Positions 6,001 through 32,960 of a stretch of 32,960 nucleotides of DNA are shown piece after piece. The first letter of the stretch is position 1, and each line of letters opens with the position of its first letter. The DNA comes from a bacterium (GTDB lineage Bacteria; Elusimicrobiota; Elusimicrobia; UBA1565). The DNA lies in assembly GCA_004322435.1 (NCBI GenBank), contig SCTT01000028.1, forward strand, positions 1-32,960. The letters are read 5' to 3'. The notes under the pieces are model-generated. The model did not search any database and was not told the origin of the DNA. It saw nothing but the letters and a program-made list of their open reading frames with translations. Both the position numbers and the translations under genes were made by a program.

Positions 6001-9000
6001 TGCCGGAGGCCGACTTCACCGAGGGCTACCTCTACAAGGTGGCGGTGCAGGCGCGCGACTTGGCGAACCCGGTCAACCGCGAGGTGTCGGTGACCACCAT
6101 CTCGTTCGTGCTCGACCGCTCGACGCCGACCACCGCGTTCTTGGCCCCCGCCGCGGTCGTCTATGTCAGCACGAACGGCCTGACCACGTCCTCGGGCGTC
6201 TGGAACGACCAGTTCGGCATCGGGGGGCTCGTCGTGTCGAGCGTCGCCGCGGTCGAGCTCCAGCTCGAGGACATCTCGGGGGCGCCCCACACGCTGCCGG
6301 CCCAGGTCTACTGGACCGGGCACACCGCCTCCTGGCAGGCGGGCAGCACGGCCACGACCGCGGGGCTCTTCGCGAGCACCTGGTCGCTGAGCTCCCTGCC
6401 CACGGACTGGACGCACGCCAACAGCTGCGCCGGGACTTGCGCCGACGGCCGGCGCTACAAGCTGCGCGTCCGCGCCCGGGACCGGGCGGGCAACCAGGGG
6501 CTGTTCCCGACGTCGGCCCAGACCGCGGAGGCGCTCGTCATCGTGGACGTGGCCACCCCGCGCTCCGCCATCACGTTCCCGTCGGTGGCCGACCTCGGCG
6601 TCTCGACGAGCCTCGCCAACATCGTCGGCACGGCGGCCGACCTGGCCATCAACGGCTCTTCCTCGGGCGTGCGCGGGATGGAGGTCTCCATCCTCGCCAA
6701 CGGCAACGCCCTGGGCGGCGGCTCCGGGTGCTTGTCCAACAACTATTGGGCGGAATCGGGCCACATCTTCGTCAACACGGCGGGCGTCCCCATCTGGAAC
6801 CCGGCGAACTGGAACCCGACGACCGGCGAATGGAGCTTCACCTCCGCATTCATCGACCCCGCCCTGCTCGTCAACTGCGACTACGTCGTGATGTCGCGCG
6901 CGACGGACAAGGCCGGGTCGGCCCAGGACGCCCTCCAAGCTTCGGGGCAGCCCGCGCGCCGGGCCTGGGTCTTCCAACCGCCGCCGGCCACCACGGCCAT
7001 CACCGTCCCGGCGCCGGCGCACTACAAGGACCTCTCCGCCTTCAGCGGCGCGGCCAACCCGGACACCTACGCCTTGGAGCTCCAGATCGACCGCGCCGAC
7101 ACCGCCCAGTGCTGGAACGGCGCCGGCGGCTGGATCGGCTGCGGCGGCGGGTCCGCGATCCGCAACGCGACGCTCAACTCCGGGAACTGGGCCTATCCGG
7201 GCGCCGGCGCCGACATCCTGCCGCCGCTCTTGAACAACACGACGTTCACGCTGAGCATCCGCGGCAAGAACATCGCGGGCATCCCCGAGGTGCCCTCCGG
7301 CTTCGCCCATTCGGCCAGCTACAAGATCGACCGGACATCGCCGACGAGCACGCTGACCTTCCCCGCGGCCGGCTTCGTCAACGTGTACCCGACGCTGGCC
7401 GGCGGCGTCACCGACCCGCTCAACGGCGGCGTGCAGGCCGGCATCCGCTTCATCGACGTGCGCATCCGGCGCTCAAACGGCGACTCCTGGGACCAGACCT
7501 TGGGCAAGTGGGTGTCGAACCCCCAGTTCAACTCCGCGACGTACAACCAGCCCGGCAATTCCTGGTCCTTCTCCGCCGTCCCGGCGAGCGTGACCTGGAC
7601 CACCAACGAGACCTACCAGGTCTTCGCGCGCGGCGAGGACCTGACCTTGGGCGGCGTGAACGGGAACATCGAGGACGTGTCGACCCCCAAGAACACCTTC
7701 ATCTTCGACACCGCCATCCCGACCGCCACCATCACGTCGCTGGTGCGCGGCAGCACCTACTCGGCGGTGACCGTATCGGGCACCGTCTCGGACAGCTCCC
7801 CGGGCCTGCTCAGCATGGTCGAACTGACCCTCAAGGACCACGGGACGCCCTCGAGCCCGTTCGTGCAGTACTGGAACGGCACCGCCTGGACCAGCTTCAT
7901 CACGACCCGGGCCTCCATCAGCGGCACGGACTGGGTCTATGGGAGCACGCCGCCCTTCCAAGACCAGCACTTCTACTCCCTCTGGGCCACGGCGCACGAC
8001 CAGGCGGGCAACATCCAATCCCAGACCGAATACGTCCTCAACGGGTCTTCGTTCTCGTTCTACGCGGACGTCTCCACGCCCGTCGTGACGTTCACGAACC
8101 CGTCGGCCTCGAACATCTTCGTCAAGAGCATGGGCATCGTCACCGGCAACGTGACGGACCCGGCCGCGGGCTATAACGCGGGCGTCCACGACGTCGGCAA
8201 CGTCAGAGTGCAGGTGAAATACCTGCTCGGCACGACGACCTTCTACTACGACAACGGCGGCAACTTCTTCTCGGCCTGCCCGACCTGCAACGAGACCGAC
8301 TCCTGGTTCAACCCGCGCGCGGGCAACTTCACCGCGCTCAGCCCGTCGCAGGGCAACTGGGTCTACGACAACGGCAACATCGCGACGACCTGGGTCCCGG
8401 ACCGGACCTATACCATCTCCGCGCGCGGCGTCGACGACGCCTCGCCGACGCCCAACGAGGCCCCGCTCGACCCGCTGCGCCGGACGAACGTCGTCTATGA
8501 CATCACGGCCCCGGCGGCCGCCGTGACGGGCCCCTCGGACCAGGCGCCGCGCAAGACGGTGGTCCTGGCTTCCGGCACCGTCACCGACAACTACGCCGGC
8601 GTACAGAGCGTCCGGGTCGTCTTGAGCTACCTGGACTCCGGAACCACCTACTATTGGAACACGGGGGTCGTGCCCTCGAGCTTCACGACCGCTTACGCCG
8701 ACCAGGCGGCCGTCGTGGCGGTCCCGGGCGCGCTGGCGACGACCTGGAGCTTCGACACCTCGCTGATCGCCCAACTCAACGACGGCACCGTCGGGGGCCG
8801 CGAGTTCCGCGTGTTCCCGTACGCGCAGGACCGCTCGGGGAACGCCTACGTCGGCGCCTCCACGTCGACGTTCTACATCGACAACACGAAGCCCACCGCC
8901 GCGGTCACGAAGCCCCCGCTCGGGGCCCTGACCCACAGCCTCAACAAGTACTACAGCCCCGCGTTGACGGGCGCCGAATCCTGGGGGAACCCGGTGGACC

Positions 9001-24000: not shown

Positions 24001-27000
24001 CCTATCTGATCAGCCAGAACGCGGTCACCAACGACCCCGTCACCCAGGTCGCCCGGACGCTCGGCGCCTCGCTGATGGAAGCGGCCTTCCCGCAGGGCAA
24101 CCCCACCGTCGACGAGCCGGGCGCCAACGCCATCTCGCTGCCCGACCACTTCTCGCCGGGGACCTCGAATCTGCCCTTCATCGGCAAGCTGCGCGCGCTG
24201 ATCCCCTCCGAGCAGACCCTCTACGTGAAGGCCACGCCCGCCTTCACCGCGAGCACCGGCACCTACGCCGCGCCGACCTTGCTCCTCGACGTGGCGGTCG
24301 CGACGGGTTCGGGCGCCGTGGACCCGTATTGGGTCGTCAGCTCGACGGCGGGGCTCCCGACCGGCGGGGCGACGACCTACATGACGGTCGGCGGGACGTT
24401 CACCGCTTCCGGAGAGGTCCAGGGTTTCGAGCTGATCAGCTACGAGAGCGTCGGCCAGCAGTTCGTCCTCGGGGCCTGGCGCGACACGCTCCAGAACGTC
24501 GTCCGCGGCGCCCTGGGGTCGGCGCCCCGCGCCCACTCCGTCGGGGAGCTCCTCGCGCCGCAGCGCGAGCAGGGCGTGACGAACACCGCGCTGATGCGCC
24601 TGGAAGCCTGGTCGAGCGCCTTCCAGGTCCAGTGGCGCCGCATCGAGATGCCCTTCAAGACCCCCGCGCCGCTGTCGGTCCATGACGAGGACGTCGTGTC
24701 GGTCCGCGTCTACAAGGTCGTCCCGGGCACCGTCAACGACAAGAGCCTCTTCGAGCCGATGGTCCCGCCGGGCCGGCGCGACGTGCTGCTCGGCACCGGC
24801 CGGATGCTCGGCGGCCGCGTCGAGGTGGACTTCAAGGACGACACGATCCTCGGCCAGCCGTTCACCTTGGTCTCGCCGTCGACCGCGACCTTCTTCATTG
24901 CGGCCGACGTCGACCAGGCGTCGTTGTTCTCGCATGAGAAGCTCGACTCCAAGAACGAGGTCCTGCGCCTCTACAAGCCCAAGGGCGGCCTCGACAACCT
25001 GGGGGACTTGAAGCTCGGCCCCGACGGGGCCGGCCATGACGTCGTCGTCGTCAACCCGGACGTCCACAGCCCGCCCTCGCCGATCGTCCCGACCATCAAC
25101 ACGCTCGACGTCTCGGTGCTCTCGATCGCGCCGGACGCCGCGATGCAGAACCAGCAGTTCGTGCCCGTCGCCAAGCTCCGCGCCCGCAGCAACCAGAACA
25201 CCGTGCGCTGGAAGGAGCTGCGCATCGACCGCCTGGGCCTCGGAGGGGCCATCGACACCGACGTCACCTTGATCCGCGTCTGGAAGAACGGCGACGGCAA
25301 CGACTCCTTCTCGGAAACCGACCGCGCGACCGACGCCGCCGGCGGCTTCGTCAACCAGGTCTCGTTCGGCAACGAGAACTTCGAGTCGGGACTGAAGACC
25401 ATCGTCTTCAAGGAGCCGATCGTCGTCAGCACGACTCCGGCCGATTTCTACATCACCTACGACTTCTCGCAGTTCGCCGGCGTGGGGACCCGCCACGCGG
25501 TGACCATCGCGAACTCGACCTATGTGGCCGTCGAGGTGCCGCACTCCGTGCAGCTGACGACGGAGACGCTCTCCCAGGTGCGCATCGAGGAGGTGCCGTC
25601 CTTGGTGAGGCTCGGCGTCAACGACGTCATCTTCAACAACCAGATCGACCAGGTGGGCCAGGCCCAGGCGAAGGTGCCGTTCTTGCGATTCAACCTCAAG
25701 TCCGACGTCGGCACCGCCCGCTGGGAGAAGATGCGCCTGGAGCGCGGCGGCGGCAGCCAGGACCCGAACAAGCTCTTCGGACGCAACACGAACGTGGGCT
25801 TCGTGCGGCTCTGGCGCGACATCAACCAGAACGACAAGCTGGACGCGCCCGACATCGACATCGGCCAGGCGGGCAGCCTGGTCCAGACCCAGGTCCTCGC
25901 GGCCGCGGCGACCCCGTTCGCGCTCGTCGTCGCCTCGACCGAGGGCTTCCCGTCGAGCGGCGTCGGGCGCCTCTACGTCGGCGAAGCCGAGCTGATGACC
26001 TTCAGCGGCTACGGCCAGCAACTGATCGGGGGAACGACGTACCCGACGCTGACCATCGTCTCGCGCGGCGACGTGCTCGGCGACGGGCCCACGCCGCGCG
26101 TGACGCACGCGCCGGGCGCGCCCGTGCGCAAGGTGGACCTCTTCAACCAGCTCGACGACCAGGACCTCCAGATCATCATCGAGCTCGCCCAGAGCCAGAC
26201 CATCTCCCCGACCGCCTCGGTCTTCTTCGTCAGCTTCGACATCGGCGCGACCGCGGTCAAAAACGACGAGGTCGGGGTCAACATCCTGGACCGCTCCTGG
26301 ATCTCGGTCAGCCAGCCCAACGACAGCGCGGCCACCATCGACGTGGACGTGTCGAAGGAGCGCTCGGCCGGGACGAAGACCCAGCCCTTCCCTTATAAGG
26401 GCACGCGGGTCTTCATCTCGCCGCTGACGATGAAGGTCGCGGCGCGCAACATCGCGCCGACCGCGGCCGTCGGCGGGCAGAAGAACGTCCCGCTCGAGCA
26501 GCTCACGTTCTCGGTCAACTCGGACTTCGTGCGCGTCGCCCAGATCACGTTCAAGCAGCTGGGCACCGGCCAGACCGGGGCGGCGCTCGGCCAGGGCGAC
26601 GCGGAGCGCGTGACGATGTGGCTCGACGACGGCAACGGGGCGTTCACGCCGGCGACGGACGTCAAGATCGCCGACGTCTTCCACAGCACCTTCCCCGGCG
26701 GCAGCGCGCTGTTCGCCAACGGCTCGGCGCTGGCCGATTTGACGGTGCAGGGCATCCCGTACCTGACCGTGACCACGGCCCCGGTGAACGTCTTCCTGGC
26801 CGTCGACGTGTCCACGCGGGACGGCGCCCTCCAGAACACGGTCGGCCACAAGGTCGGCTTCGGGCTCGAAGCCTTCGAGGACATGCTGGGCCCCAACGGC
26901 TCCGAGCTGACGGCCATCTCGGACGACTTCAACGCGACGCAGCTGCCGGCGCGCTCGGCGCTCGTGACCATCTCGACGGCGATCATCCCGCTCTCGAACG

Positions 27001-28652
27001 CCATCCCGAAGATCGTCATCGCCCCGAACGGCTACCCGGCCTACGCGAAGCTCGATGCGGGCGGCAACATCATCATCTCGACGGCTACCGGCCGCCCCGA
27101 GATCGACGAGTCCAAGTGGATCCTGGTGCCGAAGGCGGTCAAGCTCGCCGAGGTCGACACCAAGCTCTTCGAGCCGCTCATCGACATCAACGGCGACGGG
27201 GCGCCCGACAACTTCGACATGACGGGGTCCGGCCGCCTCGACCAGGTCAGCCTCGGCGGCACCGGGCGGCCCTCGATGGACGTCGACGGCGACGGCCTGC
27301 TCGACATGGACATCAACATGGACGGCATCCCGGACATCGTGACCTCGGACGGCCAGGGCAACCAGGTCTTCTTCATGGTCGACGAGTTCGGCCACGCCGA
27401 GCCGGTCTCGGACCAGGGCCTGGCCCTGTCGGCCTGGAACCCGGACTCGACGGCGCTCAAGATCGCCTGGCAGGTGCCCACCTCGACGGCCGGCATCACC
27501 GGCTACCAGTTGGCCGTCGGCCGGAGCTTCGCCGAGAACCATACGTTCAAGGACTGGGTGTCCTTCGCCGGCCAGACGACCTCCGCGACGCTGACCGGCC
27601 TGGCCCTGCCCGTGCCGAAGGTGACCCGCCTGGCCCTGCCGGTGGGCATCAACGACGCGACCTTCACGGTGGAAGACGGCTCGAAGCTGCTGAGCGTCGG
27701 CAAGCTGATCATCGGCACCGAGATCGTGAGCGTGCGCAAGCTGGACAACACGCACTTCGCGTTCCAGACCGGCCAGACGGGCTGCCCCGCCGGCCAGAGC
27801 CGCGGCTGCGACGGCTCGCTGCCCTCGATGCACCTGGCCTCGGAGCTCGTCTCGGACGGCGTCGCGCTGGTGTCCGTGCGCGGCTACACGACCCCGCTCG
27901 GACAGACGCCCGGCGGGTGGATCCCGTCGGAGACCGGCCGCCCGCTCGTGATGTACCGCGTGGACACCTCCGGGCCGAACGTCCCCGGCATCGCGACCCC
28001 GCAGGTGCCGGTGGGACAGCCCTCGGGCCCGAGCTTCGTCGTCAGCTGGGGCGCCGCCAGCGACGTCGAGTCGGGCGTGATGGCCTATGAGGTGCAGGAG
28101 CGCGCCGGCACCGACCCCGTCTGGAAGTCGCTGGGCATCATCCCCGCGGTCAAGGTCGGCGGCGTCACCAACAACAGCTACCAGGTGGGCAACGCCTCGG
28201 TGAACCCCTGGGAGACCCCGCGCAAGACCGACCTCTTCCTGACCTACCGGGTGCGCGCGTACAACAACGCCGGCCTCCCGTCGGCCTTCACCGCGGAGTC
28301 GGCCGCCGTCGCGACGTCGATCACGAACTCCGTCGTCTCGAACGTCTCGAACTACCCGAACCCCTTCGACAGCCGCAAGGGCGGGCCGGAAGGCCGGACC
28401 GTCATCACCTACACGCTCGGCGCAGCCGCCGACGTCGAGATCGTCATCTACGACCTGCTCGGCTACGTCGTCAAGACCATCAAGGTGGCCCCCGGCGAGC
28501 AGGGCGGGCGCCTGGGCCCGAACTTCGTGACCTGGGACGGCCGCAACGGCATGGGCCGCTACGTCTCGAAGGGCGGCTACATCGCCCGCATCAAGGTGGG
28601 CTCGTCCTTGGGCACCGCCACGGTCATCCGCAAGATCGGCGTCATCCACTAA
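1..28652 (+). CDS. Giant modular Ig-like surface protein, 5' end outside window
   Basis: The frame is open from base 3 to the TAA at 28650-28652, giving at least 9,549 residues (about 1 MDa). No start is visible. The GTG at 183 is not the start, because the conserved module linker FKFDLTPP is encoded just before it and the frame stays open to the left edge. Order of parts: Ig-like modules (to about 13275), LLPGET-type modules (13300-21480), long repeats with acidic Asp/Asn/Gly loops (21480-27150), DxNxDG repeats, two Fn3-like domains and a YPNPF C-terminal domain. No catalytic motif was noticed. Composition is rich in Ser, Thr, Gly and Ala, and cysteines lie mostly in close pairs, as expected for an exported protein. 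Likely role: cell-surface or secreted adhesin or fibre, an inference from architecture. A separate promoter follows it, so the next gene is probably its own transcription unit. Giant ORFs of this kind are known from Omnitrophota and related uncultivated lineages. Confidence 0.93.
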   Translation, partial: TFSGVSGTVNWDYDDLAGAFQDGRQYRIYVRLTDRAGNVRSAPGGGDYDFKFDLTPPVLDVRFPFAPPTPPPYSNGPSADADRIVELASGTVSDAWAGVNEVWVAVSSGVSNDMWYDHLTGAFDHGPDVSIFWTTRAYSGGPSWLYSPSTWSKTLGSQAATFRDGVTYTVFVKARDKAGNWLNDVTSPGASGAGQKLEFKYDVSRPTGGVTVPIHGSSTRTLAQFSGTWAEQGPNPGGLAAVYVAVQHLDGPQFGVGNFWNWGTPGFTLPDPLNNQNSGAWTRVSSLSVTQQFNSLSWSTPVPVALLESSNTYRVMTLVIDQATNKQLTPTDAGVGSSFRFDSQAPSAGITFPTTNSSKNTAALSAISGIADDNAFGNSGLELVEVLLKSNQLNGYWNGGSSNSLGDWDTTAGTKHGRWLPAIGLASWSKAFPSMAFLDSTEFTLWVRARDLAGNVSPTPSDAQLDAGENSDSTPAIKFIYDNTKPVSRVYFPAQFANSATLAAISGTSADPGLSPAGVTGMEFKLKRSDGEWWTQLNSWSSDQVEPAFANVTSLPPYPTWSKSDGITYLNGYRYDATGRATDAAGNVETALTTHTFIVDLTTPVARISAPAHNGSVNASLTQIQGTADDRKCFLPAESEAGCPGAAASNFQSGLSSASVEVAIQESSGAYWVGGGSTFTASVPVWSTASFVGDSSGAWTWAFSAANLVSPRQYKVSTRVRYDRSGNYQTVYATNAFIYDTTKPDSLATAPAGSQGAVNTITGTAKDVFPGSLDLVLLSIKEEFCGGSPCHIDNYWNGVGAGWKPGEVFLASGTITGEVAGIDGNENGTCDAGETCAWSFDATGVAWDNKSTFTVVARARDQGSNVKDMPGSRELTFYLETPAPVANVAQPPLVAGVPHYQSGNANVTTVIGTGANLRVTDGVRVSLQRLATPTSYWFDPSAAWTNDASTYTSVNPAAGAPQNWSRSLTAGVYAQTNSSYTLSVIGINSANQLSVPSVDRTFIIDDVKPVGEFISPPAAACPGEPGANACLSALPAIIGTAVDPGNPAGLSASITNVWIRLKDNQDVVNPFWDGLTFQGVAADLMTSATSNAVVDWSSATLAQPALRDGIDYTLFMFGKDKAGNQESNPSLMKQFTFVWDTTPPAPWFIQPSSGEVYMNLDTITGTATDPGGASGPKKSGVTSVKVRVRRPSDNSCFDGAAFGSCSGSSDLSVTGTDPWQYTNGSLTGQLINASTYVLTLTASDAAGNPSGSPVSVISSRAVHIDKNPPTAGFTKPVHLSAYQPSVLSGGSGLTGTATDAEAFLYKGDPILDTGVHTLIWYMQGATSFYFNSAACAPSNFCATTTAEASWATATWTGSWEVFFNQANWVSDKPYRAMIRARDRARVSTGTVVGNLSAPGVVGRDFVDFTVDGTPPVVSVVSHQDGAFIQNLNAVSGTANSDLAGAASYYLRITTKVAGAPEAYWNGSVWTLNPTNLPVDVTGSTGTVSWAYPGNILGQTAPTIIEADGTQYGVSFQAKDFAGQLSAAATNYVILDRIGPTLSLSTPMAAPDQYYGPARTMPQLKGNASDTPAGVRQVLVQIQNLDDVSFWHVGTGLWVVASSSYAVASATAPWTFTGPNFVPNKRYRASVLGVDTAGNTTAVPFDRDFLYDANKPSSTILSPSVSPQPRNQPTVISGTALDVVNLGGETAGLLDRVEIAVQETVSGNYWKGTVGQGGFQSGQTYRLTASTPGSPAAWSYPAFGDTIPPWVDGVNYTLRVRAVDRSQNSELVDQTFAFTYDQTAPTTTVTGPTPGDFVLSPSTLTGSFTDASGMSRIQVALRQQNGSFWDGSAFASTETWFNAQIWTSTWSFYDPDFAAAYAALPNPIRYSVWVAGTDAAGNLNRSTTTVWSPPGEDGNFTIDHFAPVSRSTYPSLAYQTGAVTPISGTAADEANGAGMLGAIAVNLKVLQLNSAGTTGYHNGLGSFVVGTDPGFNLPVQYFVNGFPGGSVGAWGSDSTVLPEADFTEGYLYKVAVQARDLANPVNREVSVTTISFVLDRSTPTTAFLAPAAVVYVSTNGLTTSSGVWNDQFGIGGLVVSSVAAVELQLEDISGAPHTLPAQVYWTGHTASWQAGSTATTAGLFASTWSLSSLPTDWTHANSCAGTCADGRRYKLRVRARDRAGNQGLFPTSAQTAEALVIVDVATPRSAITFPSVADLGVSTSLANIVGTAADLAINGSSSGVRGMEVSILANGNALGGGSGCLSNNYWAESGHIFVNTAGVPIWNPANWNPTTGEWSFTSAFIDPALLVNCDYVVMSRATDKAGSAQDALQASGQPARRAWVFQPPPATTAITVPAPAHYKDLSAFSGAANPDTYALELQIDRADTAQCWNGAGGWIGCGGGSAIRNATLNSGNWAYPGAGADILPPLLNNTTFTLSIRGKNIAGIPEVPSGFAHSASYKIDRTSPTSTLTFPAAGFVNVYPTLAGGVTDPLNGGVQAGIRFIDVRIRRSNGDSWDQTLGKWVSNPQFNSATYNQPGNSWSFSAVPASVTWTTNETYQVFARGEDLTLGGVNGNIEDVSTPKNTFIFDTAIPTATITSLVRGSTYSAVTVSGTVSDSSPGLLSMVELTLKDHGTPSSPFVQYWNGTAWTSFITTRASISGTDWVYGSTPPFQDQHFYSLWATAHDQAGNIQSQTEYVLNGSSFSFYADVSTPVVTFTNPSASNIFVKSMGIVTGNVTDPAAGYNAGVHDVGNVRVQVKYLLGTTTFYYDNGGNFFSACPTCNETDSWFNPRAGNFTALSPSQGNWVYDNGNIATTWVPDRTYTISARGVDDASPTPNEAPLDPLRRTNVVYDITAPAAAVTGPSDQAPRKTVVLASGTVTDNYAGVQSVRVVLSYLDSGTTYYWNTGVVPSSFTTAYADQAAVVAVPGALATTWSFDTSLIAQLNDGTVGGREFRVFPYAQDRSGNAYVGASTSTFYIDNTKPTAAVTKPPLGALTHSLNKYYSPALTGAESWGNPVDPIRGTGSDAAYPAGYAVARPASVEVRVKRSFDDNYWTGSGWTAAANTWLTMEGTTTWTWNTPPAVSTPTAWNDNQKMTVDVRATDLVGNVSNTTFEEFNWDSAPPVTTITAPSGAYMASVPTVAGYADDPLDVSETGQGGLDSSVRAVQVGTRNNSLSPGRWWDGSAFTLLDTAHAAGAGWFTATVGVENSTADWTHATTTVSFVTGNEFSINARAIDYADNVSAPVATFTFVFDNQKPNALVTVPLVGPGLVISSLGTIQGTAADGVLLQRVEVRIKRNDAVDLYWDPGNYNANDLLKFIRGEADSGAWFPALGTMLWSTGTLPSNFFKNSQNYSIHARAIDRAGNVSSISAATFTFTTDLPTSYVTVPSTRALSVWPNIAGTAVDLNAAVSTVSVAVKRLTDSSWYNDAGFVLPGTSDPLWRQVTVSGINCSAGPSIPCNFSYTLLPSNVLTPGLQYQVMSISSNTANKVEAFGGGNQGTGRDYTFVWDTQPPVSKLTFPVSGATYASLAAIQGTVNDQDPGAGLHDPLTLATYKSSMTVSIQEIGPLAGAFWNGGSTFTKSTEDFYPVDSLTHLGSNQYSWSLNSGQGLPTLANGRTYRIRVRGTDAALPVANQETLLDQRDFNYESSEATVTITVPVDLDARNALSVISGTAADLFGVKSASISLRISTGNFWNGSQYLSGTPVWFTAALTDSGDGKNFTWSYSSTTFNFGDDVNYTIGVRAETRAGVQRAGQPVVFTFDTTEPAAGVTAPTRQSSPANANAVGFYLNQLASIGGTATDQVTAKVVPSNVNDVQVKIQSLSGSDAGKFWDGGGFNDTITVWLPTDLSGAPPNAFSKTTQLPPAAKMSTGSVYAIEARAIDRATNQQGTLLVRSTFTFDPQSPVVAVTLPLDDVTLASEPFKRCSPLNYCAGLTQLAGTANDNFNVNRVEYRIRNQPDPASYWNPANNQFEVNENLWITAQGSASVAGAFGWSVSTVPAFSALSNQRYSINARAFDAAGNVLVYSTSTFVYDNTKPISVATSVVHGSTIATLGTVYGTATDGAFPILGGVIASEVNQVLFRIRRVSDEKCWDFIGSFGDTACLYTAPASLVGAAPNYQWIMASGNGLPPDGQLQTGSSYYINTRAYDKAANFETAVSTLQFTFDATPPVTYLSTPFANGFYRPADLGVIGGTAVDLPAGLSGVSYNMYDATTGQWFDAVASTFSLTAEPPPWPATLAGGAWQKSIGTPQTTFANGHTYQFRKLGLDAVNNAEPTNSAMSSWLVDSSTPTTTILTNTGKGDGETEDDLVHIIGKAFDVTPTGLPGQALNRSSVALPSDVLFTIRQTDSFSNTVETGGDKYWNGTAFVDIVSAPDVICTAATAGACRWVAASNYDTTTFDWDYTGLGAGAGATKWPRGKVYFVRTRARDRAGNLTLPSDVGIPVYKFKVAAPAQSFRVEIFGAPPPYVAGDPFTVRVTALDDLSNLAADYADWVTFQSLDAGAPESNDGVTFPADYKFTAADNGVHDFTVRLRMSGTRSLRVFQSNPLNASIAGSTGSITVNPGAADRILLTVPSQLQAPGTTSGRSGAVAISTAGQTFFVTLRVTDQFFNTVPSSSPVGVTISHTDPRGDAIVPGAWSAGVMTAPVLLRSKKGALWTVPGPTTETTLAAEGAGTPGSHNSQVVRVQANAASATKNLLVRLPGETVDSGYATGKTGVPLEQEAGSTFTATVYAADQFFNPYEPSQFQQPNVWLEANTAYAQTGTTVTLALGATTYPVWLPVASTTTILTAKPGTAPFVESSTRVAVSPARQDLGVWRLQLLVPPMVQEPGSVTGVKNAAGTLGVGATVTVRISLVDRFFNTVFGTTTWIGSLSLPNVRLDFSDANMATRGLVPPSLSLIDGTRAMSFIPATRTGGALPLQTISAVDNAAVYSSYTVYGVAVNPGAATRLQLLLPGETAAEGSPVGKTGSPQLFRAGFGVLATLRATDDYWNLTGDGRTVALTVSDVYASTQPAIPLVGGQAALSFTPRTSTAAALMSASAVDTDNITPQLATFTVSGLSVDPDTNMKLVAIIPGETYTPGKPPYDTGTLGGRTVNQSTTVPAGTPFTFTVRAVDIQWNTVLANGAVSMTSDDPSAVIPTPTLALVNGVTTFTFTPVTAGARTVTVSAGGVASNTSSSFTVAASRLSLLAPGQTPDPGNVGALGRAGNADRDGGTPGVQPFIAGTPFNVTVRLTDANFYPIAAGVPITLRFFSSDPYAVLPADSVLNADGEDVFSVTLASATALGGGSSVWVVPLANSNVMASTSSVLLVDPGTPARLLALPDGVQPDKGSPSGYVGTPVATAAGHGYPLRVFVVDSLNNPVVCSEYPAGGALPDCLEPSVRLALTDPYAPNVPDFAVTGGSRVVAVTFYSNTVVDPVGGPWAVSIATTDASPLAPASVSGIVVNPDAPYQFQVLVPTETSRGGATGLLGKTTAAALSELAGATFTVTVNLVDRYWNRMPPGFNSTFKLTSDDPNNRLALMGNITTVNGQALSTGTFLVTQSTVSGWVIRASTASGDPYLAGESTRFKVFPSTPSQMVALLGPQQQVDGVGVTGLPAIETAGEFITIRLRAVDPGFNFTPTVDKTGIRLTSDDGFAQSSWTLTMADGVAVASVSLRTAGVRSFTITDQSGTQPLLAGTVSSTFTMVASNPTRLRLLVPSQFSVAGSTSNGRGGTVGSIPAGSTLTATVQITDSFWNLTPGASQQIRLTSSDPYAALMPATFTLVGSAPVDVVFRRAGQNTVRAELLTTPPPWGPSVVTDTSTVITVTAGLPKNLLTLLPGETFDPGSPSGKAGSPGSVGLRAGDSFAVTVGIVDQFLNLVTGRPATVKVRTPTGSPFSVTAATEAVDFTVGYTNPPLQATLVAAATWHQLVAEDFFFSGLQDSPFTSTFTVKPNFPVGLQMLLPGEQNVGGLGVYPNGGRSGVISTQTAGAPFQATVNLVDIYNNVFNELASGPNVLLATNDPYDKDPGVVPVPLSFGSLGIQVTLVSKSTSAVLSVTPDIQAVDEVCSGNIPAVCRAQAPGAVSAKFKVWASSAARMMVLLPGETAVQGKCDLTSVCAALANGDTAGKTGTPSPFTMTMPQSGFQVTVNLIDDFYNIASNRVGGTQDTNPIPAMPTVQVQMPRDSQIVSPASATLNVGTWAFPIVPLTALSSYTIVAATISPSVVSLATAASAEFGVLPGPAHHLHFGNVPSSAAAGSAFPVTLIAHDQFHNVLSTGTNLYTKSVQLGVGAGESFAPPQDPVFSPSIAPFLAAEQGVKSLPNAFILKKAGVRTIKAVQTDNPFIHTDVAPFSQSPTVTILPGNPGAVTVDPGPTSQVISVRAGSILNPGIQAITGQLSDAFNNAVVSSSPVRLEVVDVSGATGALMYDPGGGWVEIGQSTVVLTDAKGRVGKNGDADNVNFALGYRVSSLAGHSARVWIATSTPPGNLTPYILNQRNLSGSLLTTGGKPSQLILVSTTPAAPATSLPAGGGDFVVRRLDDFGNPTDQGQTDITLSVPAAQRAVREARGFRLGTPFTTNGDFGFTEPNSPFNFVASISIPDFLTDTSFRYRDAMSSYSGANPSVNTSYGGRPGYWTLQITPTTVDVTSATFLMRINPADPVKLGFGNPVNRQVAGKVYDLGGVTLRSFQAQVQDAFSNPAVTTHTLVVNLSTVSRLSSDQLDSFSFAAASDIAAGNPPTFLTPVSSLTIPTLSYETTFYYLDTRASSNYPALWPYPFGFNVAPVIQAADRDGVLASTRQYVNVLPDNISRTGVVALAASGLLAGATSETLFMQVQDRFANPSAILGGQEDAGKTYVEFRLTSDSLGSTQFSSPDQNAFTPTVGFARLYPGSHTTSFYLIDTLVGATTWNVYADEVQDRTWNATSATYTVRPGPPVAARFSSAMRRLIAGTTIQTGLETPQSTGTAVEVELLDQFGNVTSSSWAFHTVLVNSQDSPTMRAGTDPTRPTVDGNDWRLRGPSDAPEAVTINPTKERGRLFVWDTKVGTKTLQAVVVRQDGYTMPTVTQQVEITPNKADYITLHHPFTAVNPLKVNNPGVIARTAGTQVLGVVMRDKFGNIASGHPVNGQYFTGEVKFSISGSTATVQMTDLDVGIATGVHQFKGAADGTPGVFTGLQIQDSIVEELQIRATAVAYPGVFGYTKDAGRPFNDVSFTPTSLSDGNVFIAGIVFTPTDLAPEKDPLTGLVTVQKSGVGQVRPVIRQGDGSALAPTPEGRKPVEMLRLTARVQPSSATFLYGELAGLQVQRTGLLDPGHVEELGLWSDDGDGILKESDDVFIASATADGPVWYFGDPLHAQSPLNIANSTKTLITTVARNYFLTLRMKATGYTDGELPSSLGLLINSQSAVRLSTTSPVGVASNAFAIKTATSPVEREAARILVAGNSIGAWWNATDDLGASLGLSSYSYVDQGKDFVGFLKLQLWTESFAGTLGKVHLTRNGDGQDSDVRAVRLFIDSGSDGDPRSGDGAFQFSIDKELTDPAAPTKFVGRGADLELQIRTAAQDPSGFNEAQRTISNATNTYFVVMDMEPGATPSRFHGVQVSGPADIIPLANNGLPVSFSPIVSTNVVVRPTSDLALLQQVNKEGCPLVGGCTGSQFKKSVAAFLTQADRNAVVGKLTMKTFTGSALWSGIKFDRWIHSSQQGGAIRLKNKASDVDDIKVWVDMNGDGLLQPATDQVVSPLSGVIHKFPASTLATAISSTTPSPINVQVANIAAFFPDDDPFSSVPQRLVLNDGQNDESLKEVMDCSGVDFASNTWLNCLRAQEGTSSLSFATNTVISGPARIPLLGLGGGQTLTANAKDYFVTFDVNALASVDSEANLGVSIPNTFYFQIQAPKNMASNNVGLPPTGNTLALISDLQPYSDSLTVRSSNTVDQAFGAFLQQRSTASVLSFTMETNVADALWRYVIVQATGTSALVGAHVTDVELVSLWRDSNQDGRLDPGLDDLVGTGKYGNAGNPQLARINLSTPTYINTPTAATASQRFFIAYLISQNAVTNDPVTQVARTLGASLMEAAFPQGNPTVDEPGANAISLPDHFSPGTSNLPFIGKLRALIPSEQTLYVKATPAFTASTGTYAAPTLLLDVAVATGSGAVDPYWVVSSTAGLPTGGATTYMTVGGTFTASGEVQGFELISYESVGQQFVLGAWRDTLQNVVRGALGSAPRAHSVGELLAPQREQGVTNTALMRLEAWSSAFQVQWRRIEMPFKTPAPLSVHDEDVVSVRVYKVVPGTVNDKSLFEPMVPPGRRDVLLGTGRMLGGRVEVDFKDDTILGQPFTLVSPSTATFFIAADVDQASLFSHEKLDSKNEVLRLYKPKGGLDNLGDLKLGPDGAGHDVVVVNPDVHSPPSPIVPTINTLDVSVLSIAPDAAMQNQQFVPVAKLRARSNQNTVRWKELRIDRLGLGGAIDTDVTLIRVWKNGDGNDSFSETDRATDAAGGFVNQVSFGNENFESGLKTIVFKEPIVVSTTPADFYITYDFSQFAGVGTRHAVTIANSTYVAVEVPHSVQLTTETLSQVRIEEVPSLVRLGVNDVIFNNQIDQVGQAQAKVPFLRFNLKSDVGTARWEKMRLERGGGSQDPNKLFGRNTNVGFVRLWRDINQNDKLDAPDIDIGQAGSLVQTQVLAAAATPFALVVASTEGFPSSGVGRLYVGEAELMTFSGYGQQLIGGTTYPTLTIVSRGDVLGDGPTPRVTHAPGAPVRKVDLFNQLDDQDLQIIIELAQSQTISPTASVFFVSFDIGATAVKNDEVGVNILDRSWISVSQPNDSAATIDVDVSKERSAGTKTQPFPYKGTRVFISPLTMKVAARNIAPTAAVGGQKNVPLEQLTFSVNSDFVRVAQITFKQLGTGQTGAALGQGDAERVTMWLDDGNGAFTPATDVKIADVFHSTFPGGSALFANGSALADLTVQGIPYLTVTTAPVNVFLAVDVSTRDGALQNTVGHKVGFGLEAFEDMLGPNGSELTAISDDFNATQLPARSALVTISTAIIPLSNAIPKIVIAPNGYPAYAKLDAGGNIIISTATGRPEIDESKWILVPKAVKLAEVDTKLFEPLIDINGDGAPDNFDMTGSGRLDQVSLGGTGRPSMDVDGDGLLDMDINMDGIPDIVTSDGQGNQVFFMVDEFGHAEPVSDQGLALSAWNPDSTALKIAWQVPTSTAGITGYQLAVGRSFAENHTFKDWVSFAGQTTSATLTGLALPVPKVTRLALPVGINDATFTVEDGSKLLSVGKLIIGTEIVSVRKLDNTHFAFQTGQTGCPAGQSRGCDGSLPSMHLASELVSDGVALVSVRGYTTPLGQTPGGWIPSETGRPLVMYRVDTSGPNVPGIATPQVPVGQPSGPSFVVSWGAASDVESGVMAYEVQERAGTDPVWKSLGIIPAVKVGGVTNNSYQVGNASVNPWETPRKTDLFLTYRVRAYNNAGLPSAFTAESAAVATSITNSVVSNVSNYPNPFDSRKGGPEGRTVITYTLGAAADVEIVIYDLLGYVVKTIKVAPGEQGGRLGPNFVTWDGRNGMGRYVSKGGYIARIKVGSSLGTATVIRKIGVIH
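147..13275 (+). repeat. Array of about 33 Ig-like modules with YWNG signature
   Basis: Successive modules open with a linker like FxxDxTxP. I place these at about 147, 600, 1020, 1440, 1794, 2214, 2631, 3009, 3414, 3789, 4230, 4599, 4950, 5334, 5700, 6108, 6540, 6969, 7323, 7704, 8061, 8496, 8874, 9297, 9696, 10074, 10467, 10881, 11223, 11640, 12036, 12435 and 12792. Spacing is about 340-480 bases. Each module then shows, in order, a GTAxD turn, an amphipathic strand such as VEVRIKR, the aromatic signature (Y/F)W(N/D)G, a W near TWSY, and a closing strand YTVRxRAxDxAGN. This pattern fits Ig-like/cadherin-like beta-sandwich repeats of bacterial giant proteins. The copies are strongly diverged in DNA, so this is not a recent tandem duplication. 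A further partial module occupies bases 1-146. Confidence 0.88.
13300..21480 (+). repeat. Array of about 21 LLPGET/GKTG/DxFWN beta-modules
   Basis: The module type changes near base 13300. The new repeats start with a strand such as RLQLLLPGET, followed by a Gly-rich turn like PGSPSGKTGSP, then AGxxFxVTVxxVDxFWN, LTSSDPYA and a closing VxPGxPxRL. Starts are near 13638, 14019, 14385, 14778, 15135, 15486, 15882, 16284, 16659, 17007, 17370, 17745 and 18162. More degenerate copies follow near 18609, 18975, 19407, 19857, 20310, 20676 and 21102. The DQFxN motif and the alternating strands resemble invasin/intimin or filamin-type Ig folds (Big-like); I cannot name the family more exactly. Spacing is mostly 350-450 bases. 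Probably an extended stalk region. Confidence 0.8.
23160..23385 (+). other. Small inserted module 1 in the giant protein
   Basis: A segment starting INVQVANIAAFF and ending near TNTVISG breaks the long-repeat pattern. It contains RLVLNDG, a strand pair and a CX(n)C pair (DCSG...LNCLRAQEGTSS). It resembles modules 2-4 but is the most degenerate of the four, lacking a clear His near its end. Confidence 0.45.
24318..24561 (+). other. Small inserted module 2 (RGxxGS...H module)
   Basis: The segment reads VVSSTAGLPTGGATTYMTVG, then FELISYESV, then NVVRGALGSAPRAHSVGELL. The order 'SSTxGxP', 'Ig/EfisYxxv', 'xxVxRGxxGSxxxxHxxG' is the pattern of a small beta-module often seen in phage virion and bacterial surface proteins. 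It sits inside a long acidic-loop repeat, which continues afterwards. Confidence 0.55.
25896..26139 (+). other. Small inserted module 3 (RG...THAPGAPV module)
   Basis: The clearest copy: VVASTEGFPSSGVGRLYVGE, ELMTFSGYG, TLTIVSRGDVLGDG and THAPGAPVRK. It splits the repeat whose acidic loop WRDINQNDKLD lies just upstream from its continuation at QIIIELAQ. The pattern GFPSSGxLxIGxExxxYxG...xRG...xHxxGxxV is shared with inserted modules 2 and 4. Confidence 0.6.
27168..27400 (+). other. DxNxDGxxD repeats, probable calcium-binding segment
   Basis: Encodes tightly packed acidic loops: DINGDGAPDNFD, then SGRLDQVSLGG, DVDGDGLLDMD, INMDGIPDIV and a hydrophobic strand QVFFMVDEFG. The spacing of Asp, Asn and Gly matches thrombospondin type-3 or EF-hand-like calcium loops. 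It separates the repeat arrays from the C-terminal Fn3 and sorting-like domains, so it may act as a rigid, ion-stabilised linker (inference). Confidence 0.65.
27400..28328 (+). other. Two fibronectin type III-like domains
   Basis: The first contains ALKIAWQVPTSTAGITGYQL and ends in TSATLTGL, an Fn3-like strand pattern (W in strand B, Y in strand C, L in the F strand), and is interrupted by inserted module 4. The second spans about 27980-28328 with SFVVSWGAASDVESGVMAYE, VQERAGTD and the closing YRVRAYNNAGLPS, a classic Fn3 G-strand. Such domains commonly sit just before the C-terminal sorting-like domain in surface proteins of the FCB group and relatives. Confidence 0.72.
27621..27873 (+). other. 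Small inserted module 4, within an Fn3-like domain
   Basis: TFTVEDGSKLLSVGKLIIGT, EIVSVRKLDNTHFAF and a Cys pair (TGCPAGQSRGCDGS) precede MHLASELVSDG. The IIGTEIVSV strand and the C-terminal His follow the same scheme as modules 2 and 3. It interrupts the first fibronectin-III-like domain between TSATLTGLALP and the later GYTTPLG segment. Confidence 0.5.
28329..28649 (+). other. C-terminal YPNPF domain (T9SS type-A/FlgD-like Ig)
   Basis: The last ~105 residues begin VVSNVSNYPNPFDS (YPNPF at 28353-28367). They continue with the strands VITYTLGAAADVEIVIYDLL, GYVVKTIKVAPGEQGG, VTWDGRNGMGRYVSKGGY and IARIKVG, ending RKIGVIH. This follows the consensus of type IX secretion type-A C-terminal sorting domains and of the FlgD Ig-like fold: NPF, IYDxxGxxV, WDGxNxxGxxVxxGxY. 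In Bacteroidota such domains direct passage across the outer membrane with PorV. Whether this organism has a full type IX system cannot be seen here. The adjacent PorV-like gene supports a secretion role. Confidence 0.8.
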
Positions 28653-28874: not shown

Positions 28875-30482
28875 ATGGCCAACGGCGTCTGGGGGATTAC
28901 CCCCAAGAAGAACCGGCCTGCCGGAGCGCTTAAGAGCGCTTCGGCCGCGGCGTTCCTCGCGATTTTCTCCGTGTCCGCCCGCGCCGCCGAATCCGGCGGC
29001 CAGCCGGGCGCCTTCCTGCAGTACGGCGTGGGCGCCCGGGCCCTGGCCATGGGCGGCGCCTTCTACGCCATCGCCGACGACGCCACCGCCGCCTACTGGA
29101 ACCCCGCCGGTCTGGCCTACCTGCAGCGCAAAGAGATCACCACGATGCAGGCGACCCTCTTCCAGCAGACCAGCTTCAACTACATGGGCTACGCCCACCC
29201 CACCACCACCAAGGGCACCTACTCGCTGGGCATCACCCAGCTGACCTCCAACGGCTTCGAGAAGGTCAACGCCACCTTCGACCCGGCGACCGGCGAGGCG
29301 ACCAAGATCGACAAGGCGGGCTCCTTCGCCGACACGCAGCGCGCGATCTCCTTCGCGTGGGGCCGCGAGGCCACCGAGACGATGTCCTTCGGCCTCGCGT
29401 TCAAGCAGGTCTCCCGCCAGCTCGACTCCTCCTCGGACTCCCACCTGGCCATGGACATCGGGGCGATGCGCGTCATGGGCCCCAACTACCGCCTGGCCCT
29501 CGGCGTCCAGAACGTGTTCTCGAAGGCCGGCGGCGACACCGCCGACCGCCTGCCGGTGATCCTGAAGCTCGGCAACAGCGTGCGCGCGTTCAAGGACCGC
29601 CTGGTGCTGGGCTTCGACCTGCAGAAGTCCCAGACCGCCGACCTCAACTGGCGCTTCGGCGGCGAGTACTGGGCGGCGCGCTGGTTCGCCTTCCGCTTCG
29701 GCCTCCTGGCCGCCCCGACCATCCAGGAGACCGACTTCGGCTTCGGCCTGCGCTTCCGCCGCGTGCAGCTGGACCTCGCGCAGGGCATCCACGACCTCGG
29801 GGCCTCGACCCGGATGTCCGTGACCTTCCGCTTCGGCCGCTCCCGCGACGACCGCTCCGAGGACCAGATCAAGAACCTCATCCAGCAGGGCTTCGAGGCC
29901 TTCCGCGAGGGCGACTTCTCGCTGGCCACCCTGCGCCTCAACCAGGCCCTGGACGCGGCGCCCAACAACAAGCAGGTGAAGGCGATGCTGGCCCGCCTGC
30001 AGACCGTGGTCGGCTTCGTCCCGCAGGCGACCGGCGGCGAGGAGTTCCAGACCTACACCCGCAAGGGCGTGATCGCCTACGTGGACGGCCGCGACATGAA
30101 GAGCTCGGTCAACGCGCTGCGCTACGCCTACAACAAGAACCCCAAGGACGAGAAGCTGCTGGGCCTCTTGAACTTGGTCGAGCGCGAAGGCGGCGTCAGC
30201 GAGCTGACCCGCCGCATCGACGGCCCGGACACCTTCACCTTCGTCGACCAGAAGCTCTACGACGCCCGCCAGGCCATCTACGACGGCAAGTACGACCTGG
30301 CCGTGCGCCGCGCGCAGGACATCCTGGACCTCGAGCCCTCGAACGTGACCGCGCTCGAGATCATGGGCTCGTCCTTCTTCCTGATGGAGGAGAAGGCGAA
30401 GGCCAAGGCGGTCTGGAAGCGGGTCCTAGAGCTCGACCCCAAGAACAAGACCGTCGCCGAGTTCATCAAGCAGATTCAGTAG
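28875..30482 (+). CDS. PorV/UPF0164-like outer membrane barrel with C-terminal TPRs
   Basis: 535 residues. A basic n-region (KKNRPAGALK) and hydrophobic core (ASAAAFLAIFSVSA) end at an ARA site near residue 37, a Sec signal peptide. Right after it comes the family signature GVGARALAMGGAFYAIADDA...YWNPAGLAYL (residues about 51-83), characteristic of PorV/PorQ and UPF0164 outer membrane proteins. Alternating strands typical of a FadL-like barrel continue to about residue 320. The rest is helical with three or four TPRs, for example EGDFSLATLRLNQALDAAPNN and GKYDLAVRRAQDILDLEPSN, probably in the periplasm. PorV shuttles C-terminal-domain substrates in type IX secretion, and the giant protein upstream has such a domain. 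ATG 28875 is the only sensible start; no Shine-Dalgarno is visible because the riboswitch abuts it. Expression is predicted to respond to c-di-GMP. Transport of another substrate is possible. Confidence 0.87.
   Translation: MANGVWGITPKKNRPAGALKSASAAAFLAIFSVSARAAESGGQPGAFLQYGVGARALAMGGAFYAIADDATAAYWNPAGLAYLQRKEITTMQATLFQQTSFNYMGYAHPTTTKGTYSLGITQLTSNGFEKVNATFDPATGEATKIDKAGSFADTQRAISFAWGREATETMSFGLAFKQVSRQLDSSSDSHLAMDIGAMRVMGPNYRLALGVQNVFSKAGGDTADRLPVILKLGNSVRAFKDRLVLGFDLQKSQTADLNWRFGGEYWAARWFAFRFGLLAAPTIQETDFGFGLRFRRVQLDLAQGIHDLGASTRMSVTFRFGRSRDDRSEDQIKNLIQQGFEAFREGDFSLATLRLNQALDAAPNNKQVKAMLARLQTVVGFVPQATGGEEFQTYTRKGVIAYVDGRDMKSSVNALRYAYNKNPKDEKLLGLLNLVEREGGVSELTRRIDGPDTFTFVDQKLYDARQAIYDGKYDLAVRRAQDILDLEPSNVTALEIMGSSFFLMEEKAKAKAVWKRVLELDPKNKTVAEFIKQIQ
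28890..28905 (+). other. Small hairpin early in the PorV-like coding region
   Basis: TGGGGG and CCCCCA form a perfect 6-bp stem around ATTA, starting 15 bases after the start codon. It may affect ribosome loading, but could simply be a result of the encoded GITPK sequence. Confidence 0.3.
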
Positions 30483-30869: not shown

Positions 30870-32849
30870 ATGCGCCGCCACGCGCCCGTCATCGCCTTCG
30901 CTTTGTCCCTGGCTTACGCCGGGGCCCCCGCGCTGGCCCAGATCCAGACGCCCAAGCTCGAGCTCTTGGCCCAGCGCGACGAGATCGCGCGGGCGTCGCG
31001 CGACCGGGTGCAGAAGGAGATCCTCGACCGCCTCTTCGGCGAGGGCCAGACCTCCACCTTCGTCGACGTGGAGCTCGAGCTGAAGGCCAGCCGGCGCGAG
31101 AACCTGCGCTTCGGCGCCGGCTCGGCCGAGAAGAACAAGATCAAGGAGACCCCGGACGCGAACGTCATCAAGACCGAGAACATCCTGCCCGGCGTCCCGC
31201 GCCCGAAGAACCTGCTCGAGACGCCCAAGGAGCACATGCCGGAGGCCGCGCAGAGCCAGACCGCCCAGCAGACGAAGACCGACCAGGAGGAGACCTACAC
31301 CCAGGAGCTGGTGTTCAAGAAGTTCTCGGTGACGGTCATCCACGACGTGAAGCTCTCGACGGAGACCGCCAAGCTCGCCGCGGCCCGGGAGCTCATCGTG
31401 CAGGCGCTCAAGGCCTACGACGTCAAGCCCGACGACGTCGTCTTCCGGGAAGCCGCCTACAAGGCCGCGGCCGCGAAGGACTGGAAGGAGGAGCTCAAGG
31501 AGCCCAAGGTCTACCTGCCGCTTTTGTACGCTCTGCTCACCACGCTGTTCTTGGCCTTCCTGTTCGGGCCGCTGGCCAAGTTCTTCAAGCGCTACGTCGA
31601 GGCCCTGGTGCAGAAACCCGCGGCCGAGATCAACGTCGAGTCGAACATCACGCCGCCCGAAGACGAAGGGAAGGGCAAGGGCGGCGACCTCGAGGAGATT
31701 TTGAAGAGCCAGGTGGAGATGCTCGTGGGGCGCAAGCCCTCCGAGCCGTCGCCGCCGCCCCCGCCCCCGCCGCCCGAGGACGAGGACGAAGAGGGGGAGG
31801 ATGGAGCCATGGCGAAAAAAGAGCCGTTCGCGTACATCAACGAGACCAACCTCAAGAACCTCGCCAACCTGTTCTTGCTGCGGGCCGAGGAGCCCTGGCT
31901 GGTCGCGGTCGTCCTGAGCTACCTGCGCCCCGAGTACGCCCGCCAGGTGCTGACGGCGCTCCCGGTGGAGCTGCAGGCCAAGGTGGCGCTCGAGGCGCTC
32001 AAGATCCGCCAGGTCACCAAGGAGCAGGTCCTCGCCATCGACTCGGACATCAAGGAGAACATCGACTACGTGGTCGGGGGCATCGAGCGCCTGATCCAGA
32101 TGCTCGAGGAGGCCGACCCGCGCACGCGCGCGAACATCCTGGACTATCTGCAAAACGACAAGCCGGCCGTCTTCGAGTACGTCCGCAAGCAGATCCTGAT
32201 CTTCGAGGACGTCGCCCGCTTCCCCGACCGCGAGATGCAGGTCATCGTGCGCGGCCTCAAGGCCGAGCAGATGGCCAAGGCCCTGCACGGGGCCTCCCCC
32301 GAGGTCGCCAACAAGTTCTTCTCGAACATGTCGGCCGGAGCGGCCTCGCTCGTCAAGGAGCAGATGGAGTACCAGCGCGACCTGACCGCCTCGCAGACCG
32401 AGGAGGAGCGCGCGCGCATCATGGACGCCATCAAGCTCCTCGAGAAGGAGGGCAAGATCTCCATCCGCGGCTCGGGCGCCGAGGCGGGGGGCTTCCACCA
32501 GGTCATCGCCACGGAGTCCGTGCGCGGCCCGCGGCGCATGCCCGGGCCGGCGGCGGCGCCGACGGCCGCCTCGGAGGACCCGCAGCTCGCGCGGCGCTGG
32601 TACGAGTCCGGCAAGGAGGCGCTCGACGCGGGCGACGTCGACGGCGCGGTCAAGTCCCTGCGCCAGGCCGTCGACCTCGACCATACTTTGGCCGACGCCT
32701 TCTCGGCCTTGGGGCGCGCGCTCTACCAGCAGGGCCGCTATTCCGAAGCCATCCTCTATTATGAGAGCTTCTTGAGGCTCAAGCCCGACCCCGAGCTGCA
32801 GGCTTGGGTCGACAACGTGAAAGCGTCGCAGGCCGGAACCGGAGCCTAA
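30870..32849 (+). CDS. FliF(C-terminal)-FliG(M+C)-TPR fusion, flagellar-ring relic
   Basis: 659 residues. A signal peptide ends at ALA-QIQ (about residue 24). Residues about 45-205 match the FliF C-terminal periplasmic ring-building region: EILDRLFGEGQTSTFVDVELE, a hydrophilic insertion, then KKFSVTVIHDVKLS and VKPDDVVF. A membrane helix follows (about 216-237, LPLLYALLTTLFLAFLFG), then a cytoplasmic tail with a proline run and an acidic linker. From residue 314 the sequence is FliG middle domain (EEPWLVAVVLSYLRPEYARQ, VGGIERL), then FliG C-terminal domain (FEDVARFPDRE, ALHGAS, SNMSAGAA, LLEKEGKISI) to about 540, then two TPRs (569-655). FliF's first membrane helix and first ring domains and FliG-N are absent; FliG-N normally binds FliF, which covalent fusion makes unnecessary. 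No other flagellar gene is in the window. Likely an inner membrane ring; whether it rotates is unknown. The upstream frame stops at 30843, so ATG 30870 is the start. Confidence 0.85.
   Translation: MRRHAPVIAFALSLAYAGAPALAQIQTPKLELLAQRDEIARASRDRVQKEILDRLFGEGQTSTFVDVELELKASRRENLRFGAGSAEKNKIKETPDANVIKTENILPGVPRPKNLLETPKEHMPEAAQSQTAQQTKTDQEETYTQELVFKKFSVTVIHDVKLSTETAKLAAARELIVQALKAYDVKPDDVVFREAAYKAAAAKDWKEELKEPKVYLPLLYALLTTLFLAFLFGPLAKFFKRYVEALVQKPAAEINVESNITPPEDEGKGKGGDLEEILKSQVEMLVGRKPSEPSPPPPPPPPEDEDEEGEDGAMAKKEPFAYINETNLKNLANLFLLRAEEPWLVAVVLSYLRPEYARQVLTALPVELQAKVALEALKIRQVTKEQVLAIDSDIKENIDYVVGGIERLIQMLEEADPRTRANILDYLQNDKPAVFEYVRKQILIFEDVARFPDREMQVIVRGLKAEQMAKALHGASPEVANKFFSNMSAGAASLVKEQMEYQRDLTASQTEEERARIMDAIKLLEKEGKISIRGSGAEAGGFHQVIATESVRGPRRMPGPAAAPTAASEDPQLARRWYESGKEALDAGDVDGAVKSLRQAVDLDHTLADAFSALGRALYQQGRYSEAILYYESFLRLKPDPELQAWVDNVKASQAGTGA
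31793..31811 (+). promoter_or_regulatory. Internal ribosome binding site and ATG at the FliG junction
   Basis: GGGGGAGG (31793-31800) lies eight bases before an in-frame ATG (31809-31811). That ATG opens MAKKEPFAYINETN, exactly where the FliG-like part begins. The gene's own start at 30870 has no comparable site. The site may yield a separate 346-residue soluble FliG-TPR protein alongside the fusion, or be a remnant of two formerly separate genes. Confidence 0.55.
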
Positions 32850-32850: not shown

Positions 32851-32960
32851 ATGGCAGACATCCCGCCCCCTCCCCCACCCCCCGGCGGCTCGGGCCGCCC
32901 GCCCGGACCGCCGCCGCCCCCGCCGGGCGGGGCGCCGCGCAGCACGCCGCCGCCCGCGGC
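32851..32960 (+). CDS. Polyproline-rich protein, truncated by window end
   Basis: ATG at 32851 starts one base after the preceding TAA, with GGAG six bases upstream, so it is surely co-transcribed with the FliF-FliG gene. The 36 visible codons read MADIPPPPPPPGGSGRPPGP and continue with further proline runs. There is no signal peptide, so the N-terminus is probably cytoplasmic. It is too short to assign a family. The run of seven prolines from codon 5 should need elongation factor P. The FliF-FliG linker also contains a proline run, so the two proteins may share binding partners (speculative). Confidence 0.75.
   Translation, partial: MADIPPPPPPPGGSGRPPGPPPPPPGGAPRSTPPPA

Follow-up and report, generated by a model that had tools for sequence, protein, structure and literature searches.

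The closest described system is the bacterial flagellar rotor of FliF and FliG with its MotAB stator, in which the EHPQ motif of FliG is the contact for FliM. Two rotor-stator charge pairs, MotA R90 with FliG D288-D289 and MotA E98 with FliG R281, are described in PMC12505986, and a passage of PMC7564593 assigns positioning to R90-D289 and torque generation to E98-R281, treats the latter as more critical for torque, and also reports a fliG(R281V) strain as motile. For PomA, two faces are distinguished in PMC10374538, one with R88, K89 and R232 and the other with D114 and E96. MotAB-family stators are described outside flagella in the Myxococcus AglRQS gliding motor (PMC12505986, PMC12204202), and the Bacteroidota T9SS/gliding motor GldLM is described as an ion-driven inner-membrane motor tied to PorV- and SprA-like outer-membrane parts (PMC8986121), a link to outer-membrane parts that has a counterpart in the locus analysed here.

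That locus lies in a window of 32,960 nucleotides (the whole stretch of DNA analysed) from an Elusimicrobiota genome and encodes P0001, a protein that shares with the flagellar motor the FliG M/C fold and the FliF RBM3/collar fold, and that goes together with flagellar-type MotA and MotB, an acid at the D288 position and a basic residue at MotA R90. Unlike flagellar FliF and FliG, P0001 is one fused chain with a TPR domain, without RBM1 and RBM2 and with no clear FliG_N; R281, R297 and EHPQ are lost, the phylum sample holds no FliM and almost no flagellar export genes, and the gene stands in an operon with PorV-family and giant proteins. FliF and FliG also share one chain in the Vibrio PDB matches 8z4d and 8z4g, which we take to be engineered, but there both FliF and FliG are full-length, whereas P0001 is natural, short in its FliF part and TPR-bearing. 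Compared with GldLM, the components here are MotAB and a FliG-type rotor protein, and GldL was over its cut-off in 0 of 99 genomes, a weak negative since no control genome scored either. AglRS is placed in the non-flagellar GIT clade (PMC12505986), while MotA here lies near flagellar MotA and a FliG-type rotor protein is present.

Domain structure and distribution of P0001

The region 32200-32400, which the sequence-only reading had assigned to a FliG C-terminal part, falls inside a single open reading frame, that of P0001. The features of the window are as follows.

3..28652, +: giant ORF of 9549 aa that runs off the 5′ contig end; it contains Ig-like pieces, and its C terminus resembles FlgD_ig/T9SS tails
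28875..30482, +: 535-aa outer-membrane protein of the PorV/PorQ family, carrying TPRs and adjoining P0001 upstream (NF033709, 98.4 bits against a cut-off of 90)
30870..32849, +: P0001, 659 aa, with signal peptide, FliF RBM3/collar-like periplasmic domain, membrane helix, Pro-rich linker, FliG M and C domains, and TPR
30939..31469, +: FliF RBM3/beta-collar-like domain, P0001 aa 24-200 (AlphaFold model, YscJ_FliF_C, hhalign)
31503..31589, +: membrane helix, about aa 212-240 (long model helix H212-248 and a hydrophobic stretch in the sequence)
31875..32066, +: FliG middle domain, aa 336-399 (Pfam FliG_M), with EHPQ changed to EEPW at 31887-31898
32148..32465, +: FliG C-terminal domain, aa 427-532 (Pfam FliG_C, 84 bits, E 8e-24; model superposition)
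32286..32288, +: H473, at the E. coli FliG K264 position (alignment)
32337..32339, +: G490, at the R281 position (alignment)
32358..32360, +: E497, at the D288 position (alignment)
32361..32363, +: Q498, at the D289 position (alignment)
32385..32387, +: T506, at the R297 position (alignment)
32580..32840, +: TPR domain, aa 571-657 (Pfam TPR matches in 30/30 orthologues)
32851..32960, +: start of a Pro-rich ORF truncated where the contig stops, matching the Pro-rich gene of orthologue loci by operon position

P0001 is a natural FliF-FliG-TPR fusion, a feature that the sequence-only reading of the FliG part left unmentioned, as it did the non-flagellar operon. In AlphaFold models of the complete protein (mean pLDDT 74.7) and of its N-terminal part (78.7), a signal-peptide helix is followed by a periplasmic domain having two long strands; next come a long membrane helix and a linker that is Pro-rich and disordered, then the FliG M and C domains and the TPRs. 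When the model of residues 25-250 was compared with known structures using VIA-align, the top 15 matches were all FliF (8z5v: Z 11.3, rmsd 2.0 Å over 99 residues), and Foldseek also returned FliF for the N-terminal domain, with weaker E-values (best 7.8e-5). The Pfam family YscJ_FliF_C was matched in 12 of 30 orthologues (best E 7.2e-6), and hhalign placed 172 columns of this domain onto residues 221-432 of E. coli FliF (E 7e-6, probability 84). RBM1 and RBM2 of FliF are absent from P0001, as the periplasmic part has only about 190 residues and the hhalign match covers E. coli FliF residues 221-432 alone. The FliG M and C domains exceed their Pfam cut-offs in P0001 and are present in 30/30 orthologues, while FliG_N gave a weak match only (26.4 bits at aa 345-424, overlapping FliG_M). 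P0001 reached 108.8 bits against the NCBIfam FliG equivalog TIGR00207, below its cut-off of 226.7, and also matched MgtE_N in Pfam (E 4e-6).

Matches to P0001 were found in 121 of 294 Elusimicrobiota genomes at E 1e-5, the weakest perhaps through the TPR only. Relatives in a wider contig search (80 kept of 111) came from records named Elusimicrobia, Elusimicrobiota or Endomicrobia, or otherwise 'bacterium', and the nearest relatives are 46-75% identical. FliM was found in 0 of 149 Elusimicrobiota genomes and FlhA and FliMN_C in one of 149 each, both in the same genome (G032), with four flagellated control genomes positive each time; FliM and flagellar export genes were likewise not found in the window's own genome. 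This agrees with the description of Elusimicrobia in PMC7031533 as lacking flagellar genes.

Charged residues of the FliG-type domains

Residues were compared across 61 TPR-bearing orthologues including the one in the window (type A), 19 TPR-less paralogues (type B), 2 others (type C) and 17 flagellar FliGs (E. coli, T. maritima, A. aeolicus, one Vibrio PDB chain and 13 plasmid-encoded FliGs), numbered by E. coli K-12 FliG from NC_000913.3 placed in the alignment. The 81 loci compared were our own selection among the P0001 matches, and FliG pieces shorter than 300 aa were excluded from the alignment (two 89-aa pieces at locus L065). A FastTree of the 99 sequences set the 82 from Elusimicrobiota apart from the 17 flagellar FliGs with support 0.999; in this same unrooted tree, types A and B were less clearly resolved, type A having support 0.84 and type B forming no clade of its own.

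The FliG_C domain of P0001 aligned without gaps to T. maritima FliG (1lkv), and its AlphaFold model superposed at 1.1 Å both on 8ucs_H, a FliG bound to MotAB (88 residues), and on 1qc7_B (89 residues). The fold is retained, as the sequence-only reading had proposed, and the letters that it gave by eye (H, G, E, Q and T at the positions of K264, R281, D288, D289 and R297, and EEPW for EHPQ) were all right, the alignment upholding each pairing without gaps, by sequence and by predicted structure.

Its claim that most torque-related charges are lost fared less evenly. At position 281, R is present in 16/17 flagellar FliGs and in 0/61 type A (G54 N5 S2) and 0/19 type B sequences, with K in both type C sequences; at position 297 a basic residue is present in 16/17 flagellar, 0/61 type A and 0/19 type B sequences. 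These counts leave little room for chance as the explanation of either loss. Position 288, in contrast, keeps its charge in P0001, since the change is from D to E, and E is also found in 9 of the 17 flagellar FliGs (acidic in 16/17, E9 D7) and in 61/61 type A sequences (type B Q11 E8). Position 289 is acidic in 17/17 flagellar, 21/61 type A and 14/19 type B sequences, and position 264 is basic in 16/17 flagellar (L in Aquifex FliG), 23/61 type A and 17/19 type B sequences. Judged from the alignment, then, R281 and R297 are gone across types A and B, the charges at 289 and 264 are lost mainly in type A, and the acid at 288 is kept in type A.

Charges conserved at shifted positions would have counted against the sequence-only reading, and a scan of FliG_C columns 222-330 found this in part. 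Position 261 (K470 in P0001), one helical turn before K264, is basic in 87% of orthologues and in 18% of flagellar FliGs, and position 287 is basic in 97% and 53%, respectively. As a replacement for R281 or R297 a shifted charge was rejected: no conserved basic substitute lies nearby, the nearest conserved one to R281 being 287. Charge reversals that the sequence-only reading did not anticipate were also seen. Position 222 is acidic in 71% of flagellar FliGs and basic in 89% of orthologues, position 320 is acidic in 82% and basic in 98%, and the conserved type A charges that are missing or reversed in flagellar FliGs include basic residues at 222, 261, 307, 320 and 324 together with K273 (61/61). 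E497, K482, M487 and S488 are invariant in 30/30 orthologues.

The sequence-only reading had also proposed a changed FliM interface, which the comparison supports. The EHPQ motif of E. coli FliG (125-128) corresponds to E340-E-P-W343 in P0001, and among the type A orthologues H126 is kept in 0/61 and Q128 in 5/61, in line with FliM in 0/149 genomes. With FliM lacking, there would be no need to retain EHPQ.

Operon and stator

Gene calls were made with our own caller seeded with the FliG ORF, and gene lengths are from that caller, not from curated annotation. The typical type A order is PorV-family protein, FliG fusion, Pro-rich protein, FlbD, MotA, MotB and lipoprotein-like protein. PorV is directly upstream of the fusion at 56/59 orthologue loci, the Pro-rich gene is present in 49 of 60 type A loci, and within six genes downstream of the fusion MotA occurs at 39/60 and FlbD at 38/60 type A loci (window not counted). 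MotA was not found near the fusion in 21/60 loci, several of which end at a contig edge; the window genome has its FlbD-MotA-MotB on a separate contig, C107, that starts inside FlbD. Ten deep-lineage genomes carry MotA-MotB, mostly with FlbD, away from the rotor gene. At type B loci MotA is nearby in 15/19 and two MotBs are present in 13/19. In bacteria without flagella, a gene for an altered-charge rotor protein beside its own motor and surface-protein genes suggests a rotary motor put to a different use.

FlbD is a small protein of flagellar operons, and an FlbD-like gene adjoins MotA in the operon, for example at L037:9841-10068 (PF06289, E 1e-22). At deep-lineage loci L042, L043, L090, L092, L094-L097, L099 and L100, the FliG fusion has behind it a further large gene (about 1550-2100 aa), which precedes the Pro-rich gene where the contig holds the latter. 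One genome, G000, carries a second FliG-type operon at locus L034 (G000:C470:2001-21985), positions 14690-19684, with a giant ORF, a small protein, a PorV-family protein, an 812-aa FliG-like protein, MotA and MotB; its MotA has Q at R90 and R at E98, and its FliG-like protein has K at 281.

Stator residues were read from 50 type A MotAs, 39 adjoining the rotor gene and 11 elsewhere, including the window genome's own. Position R90 is K in 40 and R in 10, position E98 is E24 Q24 D1 A1 (acidic in 25/50, the window genome's own included), the PomA-D114 position is D49 E1, and the PomA-R232 position is S43 and R3, with others. The window genome's MotA has K at R90, E at E98 and E at 114, and falls short of the NCBIfam flagellar MotA equivalog cut-off (207.5 bits against 340). 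The nearest solved MotA structure is 6ysf (E 1e-49), both channel prolines are kept in type A MotA, and MotB has plug and OmpA domains, with Asp32 in all type A rows except one.

Since position 288 is E in 61/61 type A rotor proteins and MotA R90 is K or R in 50/50, one classical rotor-stator pair persists, so the sequence-only proposal of a changed stator interface holds for the losses of R281 and R297 but not for this contact, and a rebuilding of the whole interface is not supported. On residue identities, the basic stator face and the rotor acid persist, R281 is gone on the rotor side, and MotA E98 is lost in about half of the copies. A strict coupling of MotA E98 with FliG 289 or 264 was rejected, as none was seen in 39 same-locus rotor-stator pairs, and because E98 is still acidic in 25/50 MotAs though R281 is gone, the losses of E98 and R281 are not strictly coupled either.

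At type B loci L047, L050, L105, L108 and L115, one of the tandem MotBs has N or S for Asp32, and at the type A locus L044 one of two tandem MotBs has G. Replacement of Asp32 in one of two tandem MotBs suggests a heterodimeric MotB with one ion-binding Asp.

A candidate non-flagellar motor

Taken together, these data describe a candidate non-flagellar FliF-FliG/MotAB motor, in which P0001 is probably the rotor subunit of an ion-driven MotAB motor with torque mainly through K/R90-E497 and output on surface proteins. The FliF-type RBM3/collar domain would assemble into a periplasmic ring, one helix would cross the membrane, and FliG-M/C would face the cognate MotA-MotB stator, while the TPR domain may take on the scaffold or regulatory work of FliM. 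Torque would pass mainly between MotA K/R90 and FliG E497 (E. coli R90-D288), the E98-R281 pair having been abandoned on the rotor side phylum-wide; without FliM, EHPQ would have nothing to be kept for, and switching is probably absent. Because the first gene of the operon encodes a PorV-family protein, in many cases preceded by a giant protein, the output is probably on outer-membrane or surface proteins. Several observations count against this reading: D289, the partner of R90 in PMC7564593, is replaced by Q498 in P0001 and the position is acidic in just 21/61, the retained acid being 288; the lost pair E98-R281 is the more torque-critical one according to that source; E98 stays acidic in 25/50 cognate MotAs although R281 is lost; MotA is not nearby in 21/60 loci; and RBM1 and RBM2 are missing from P0001.

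Some of the same observations would fit a static anchor, in which the FliG-like part docks MotAB near the TPR/PorV complex and the periplasmic part of MotB does the work, as in Tol/Exb/Gld, with no turning of FliG. R281, described as more torque-critical in PMC7564593, is lost while the R90 positioning contact is kept, MotAB is apart from the rotor gene in the 10 deep-lineage genomes, and TPR and Pro-rich partners are at hand; the FliF RBM3/collar fold, however, points to a ring like that of a rotor, and PomA-D114, which PMC10374538 places in the stator's other face, is kept in 49/50. We regard an anchor as unlikely. Even less probable is a decaying flagellar remnant whose torque charges drift now that no mechanical work is asked of it: R281, R297, EHPQ and, in many sequences, K264 and D289 have been lost, and flagellar export and FliM are absent, but P0001 is intact and conserved across the phylum with 46-75% identity in its nearest relatives and four residues invariant in 30/30 orthologues, and the MotAB operon is kept with R90 as K/R in 50/50 and PomA-D114 as D in 49/50. 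A regulator or scaffold unconnected with MotAB, merely sharing the FliG/MgtE_N fold, could draw on the MgtE_N match (4e-6) and the missed FliG equivalog (109 against 227 bits), but deserves very little credence given the FliG_C match (8e-24), the 1.1 Å superposition over 88 residues on a FliG with MotAB (8ucs_H) and the operon with MotAB.

If the rotor reading is true, the core of the flagellar motor can move to another machine, and P0001 with MotAB is a candidate motor for a phylum described in PMC7031533 as without flagellar genes. In a non-flagellar FliG-MotAB pair, the requirements of rotor-stator contact (an acid at 288, a basic MotA 90) are separated from possible switching or flagellar-load needs (R281, R297, EHPQ), and the Elusimicrobiota pair puts the charge-pair model to the test in nature. 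No published description of this system was found in the open-licence PMC literature.

The motor possibly serves a T9SS-like surface machine, and we hypothesize a surface-moving or gliding role for it. The fuller version, in which a fused FliF-FliG-TPR ring and its own MotAB take the place of GldLM in driving a T9SS-like surface or gliding machine of Elusimicrobiota, made up of the PorV-family protein, a SprA-like translocon and giant surface proteins, with the torque face cut to one charge pair in a non-switching motor, is put forward only tentatively. The C terminus of the giant ORF scored 17.7 bits against TIGR04183 (cut-off 23) and 28.7 against FlgD_ig (cut-off 27). T9SS is called Bacteroidetes-specific in several abstracts, whereas a SprA/Sov-like protein was found in 257 of 294 Elusimicrobiota genomes, the window's own included (for example L236:4109-8998:-), matching TIGR04189 at E 5.9e-39 yet under its 200-bit cut-off. 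A requirement of the FliG-type gene for the SprA-like protein was rejected: by hand count, 118 of the 121 genomes that match P0001 (a few of these matches weak and possibly TPR only) have the latter, as do 139 of the 173 that do not. SprA-like genes are thus common in genomes without the FliG fusion, indicating that the motor is not needed for the SprA-like protein as such.
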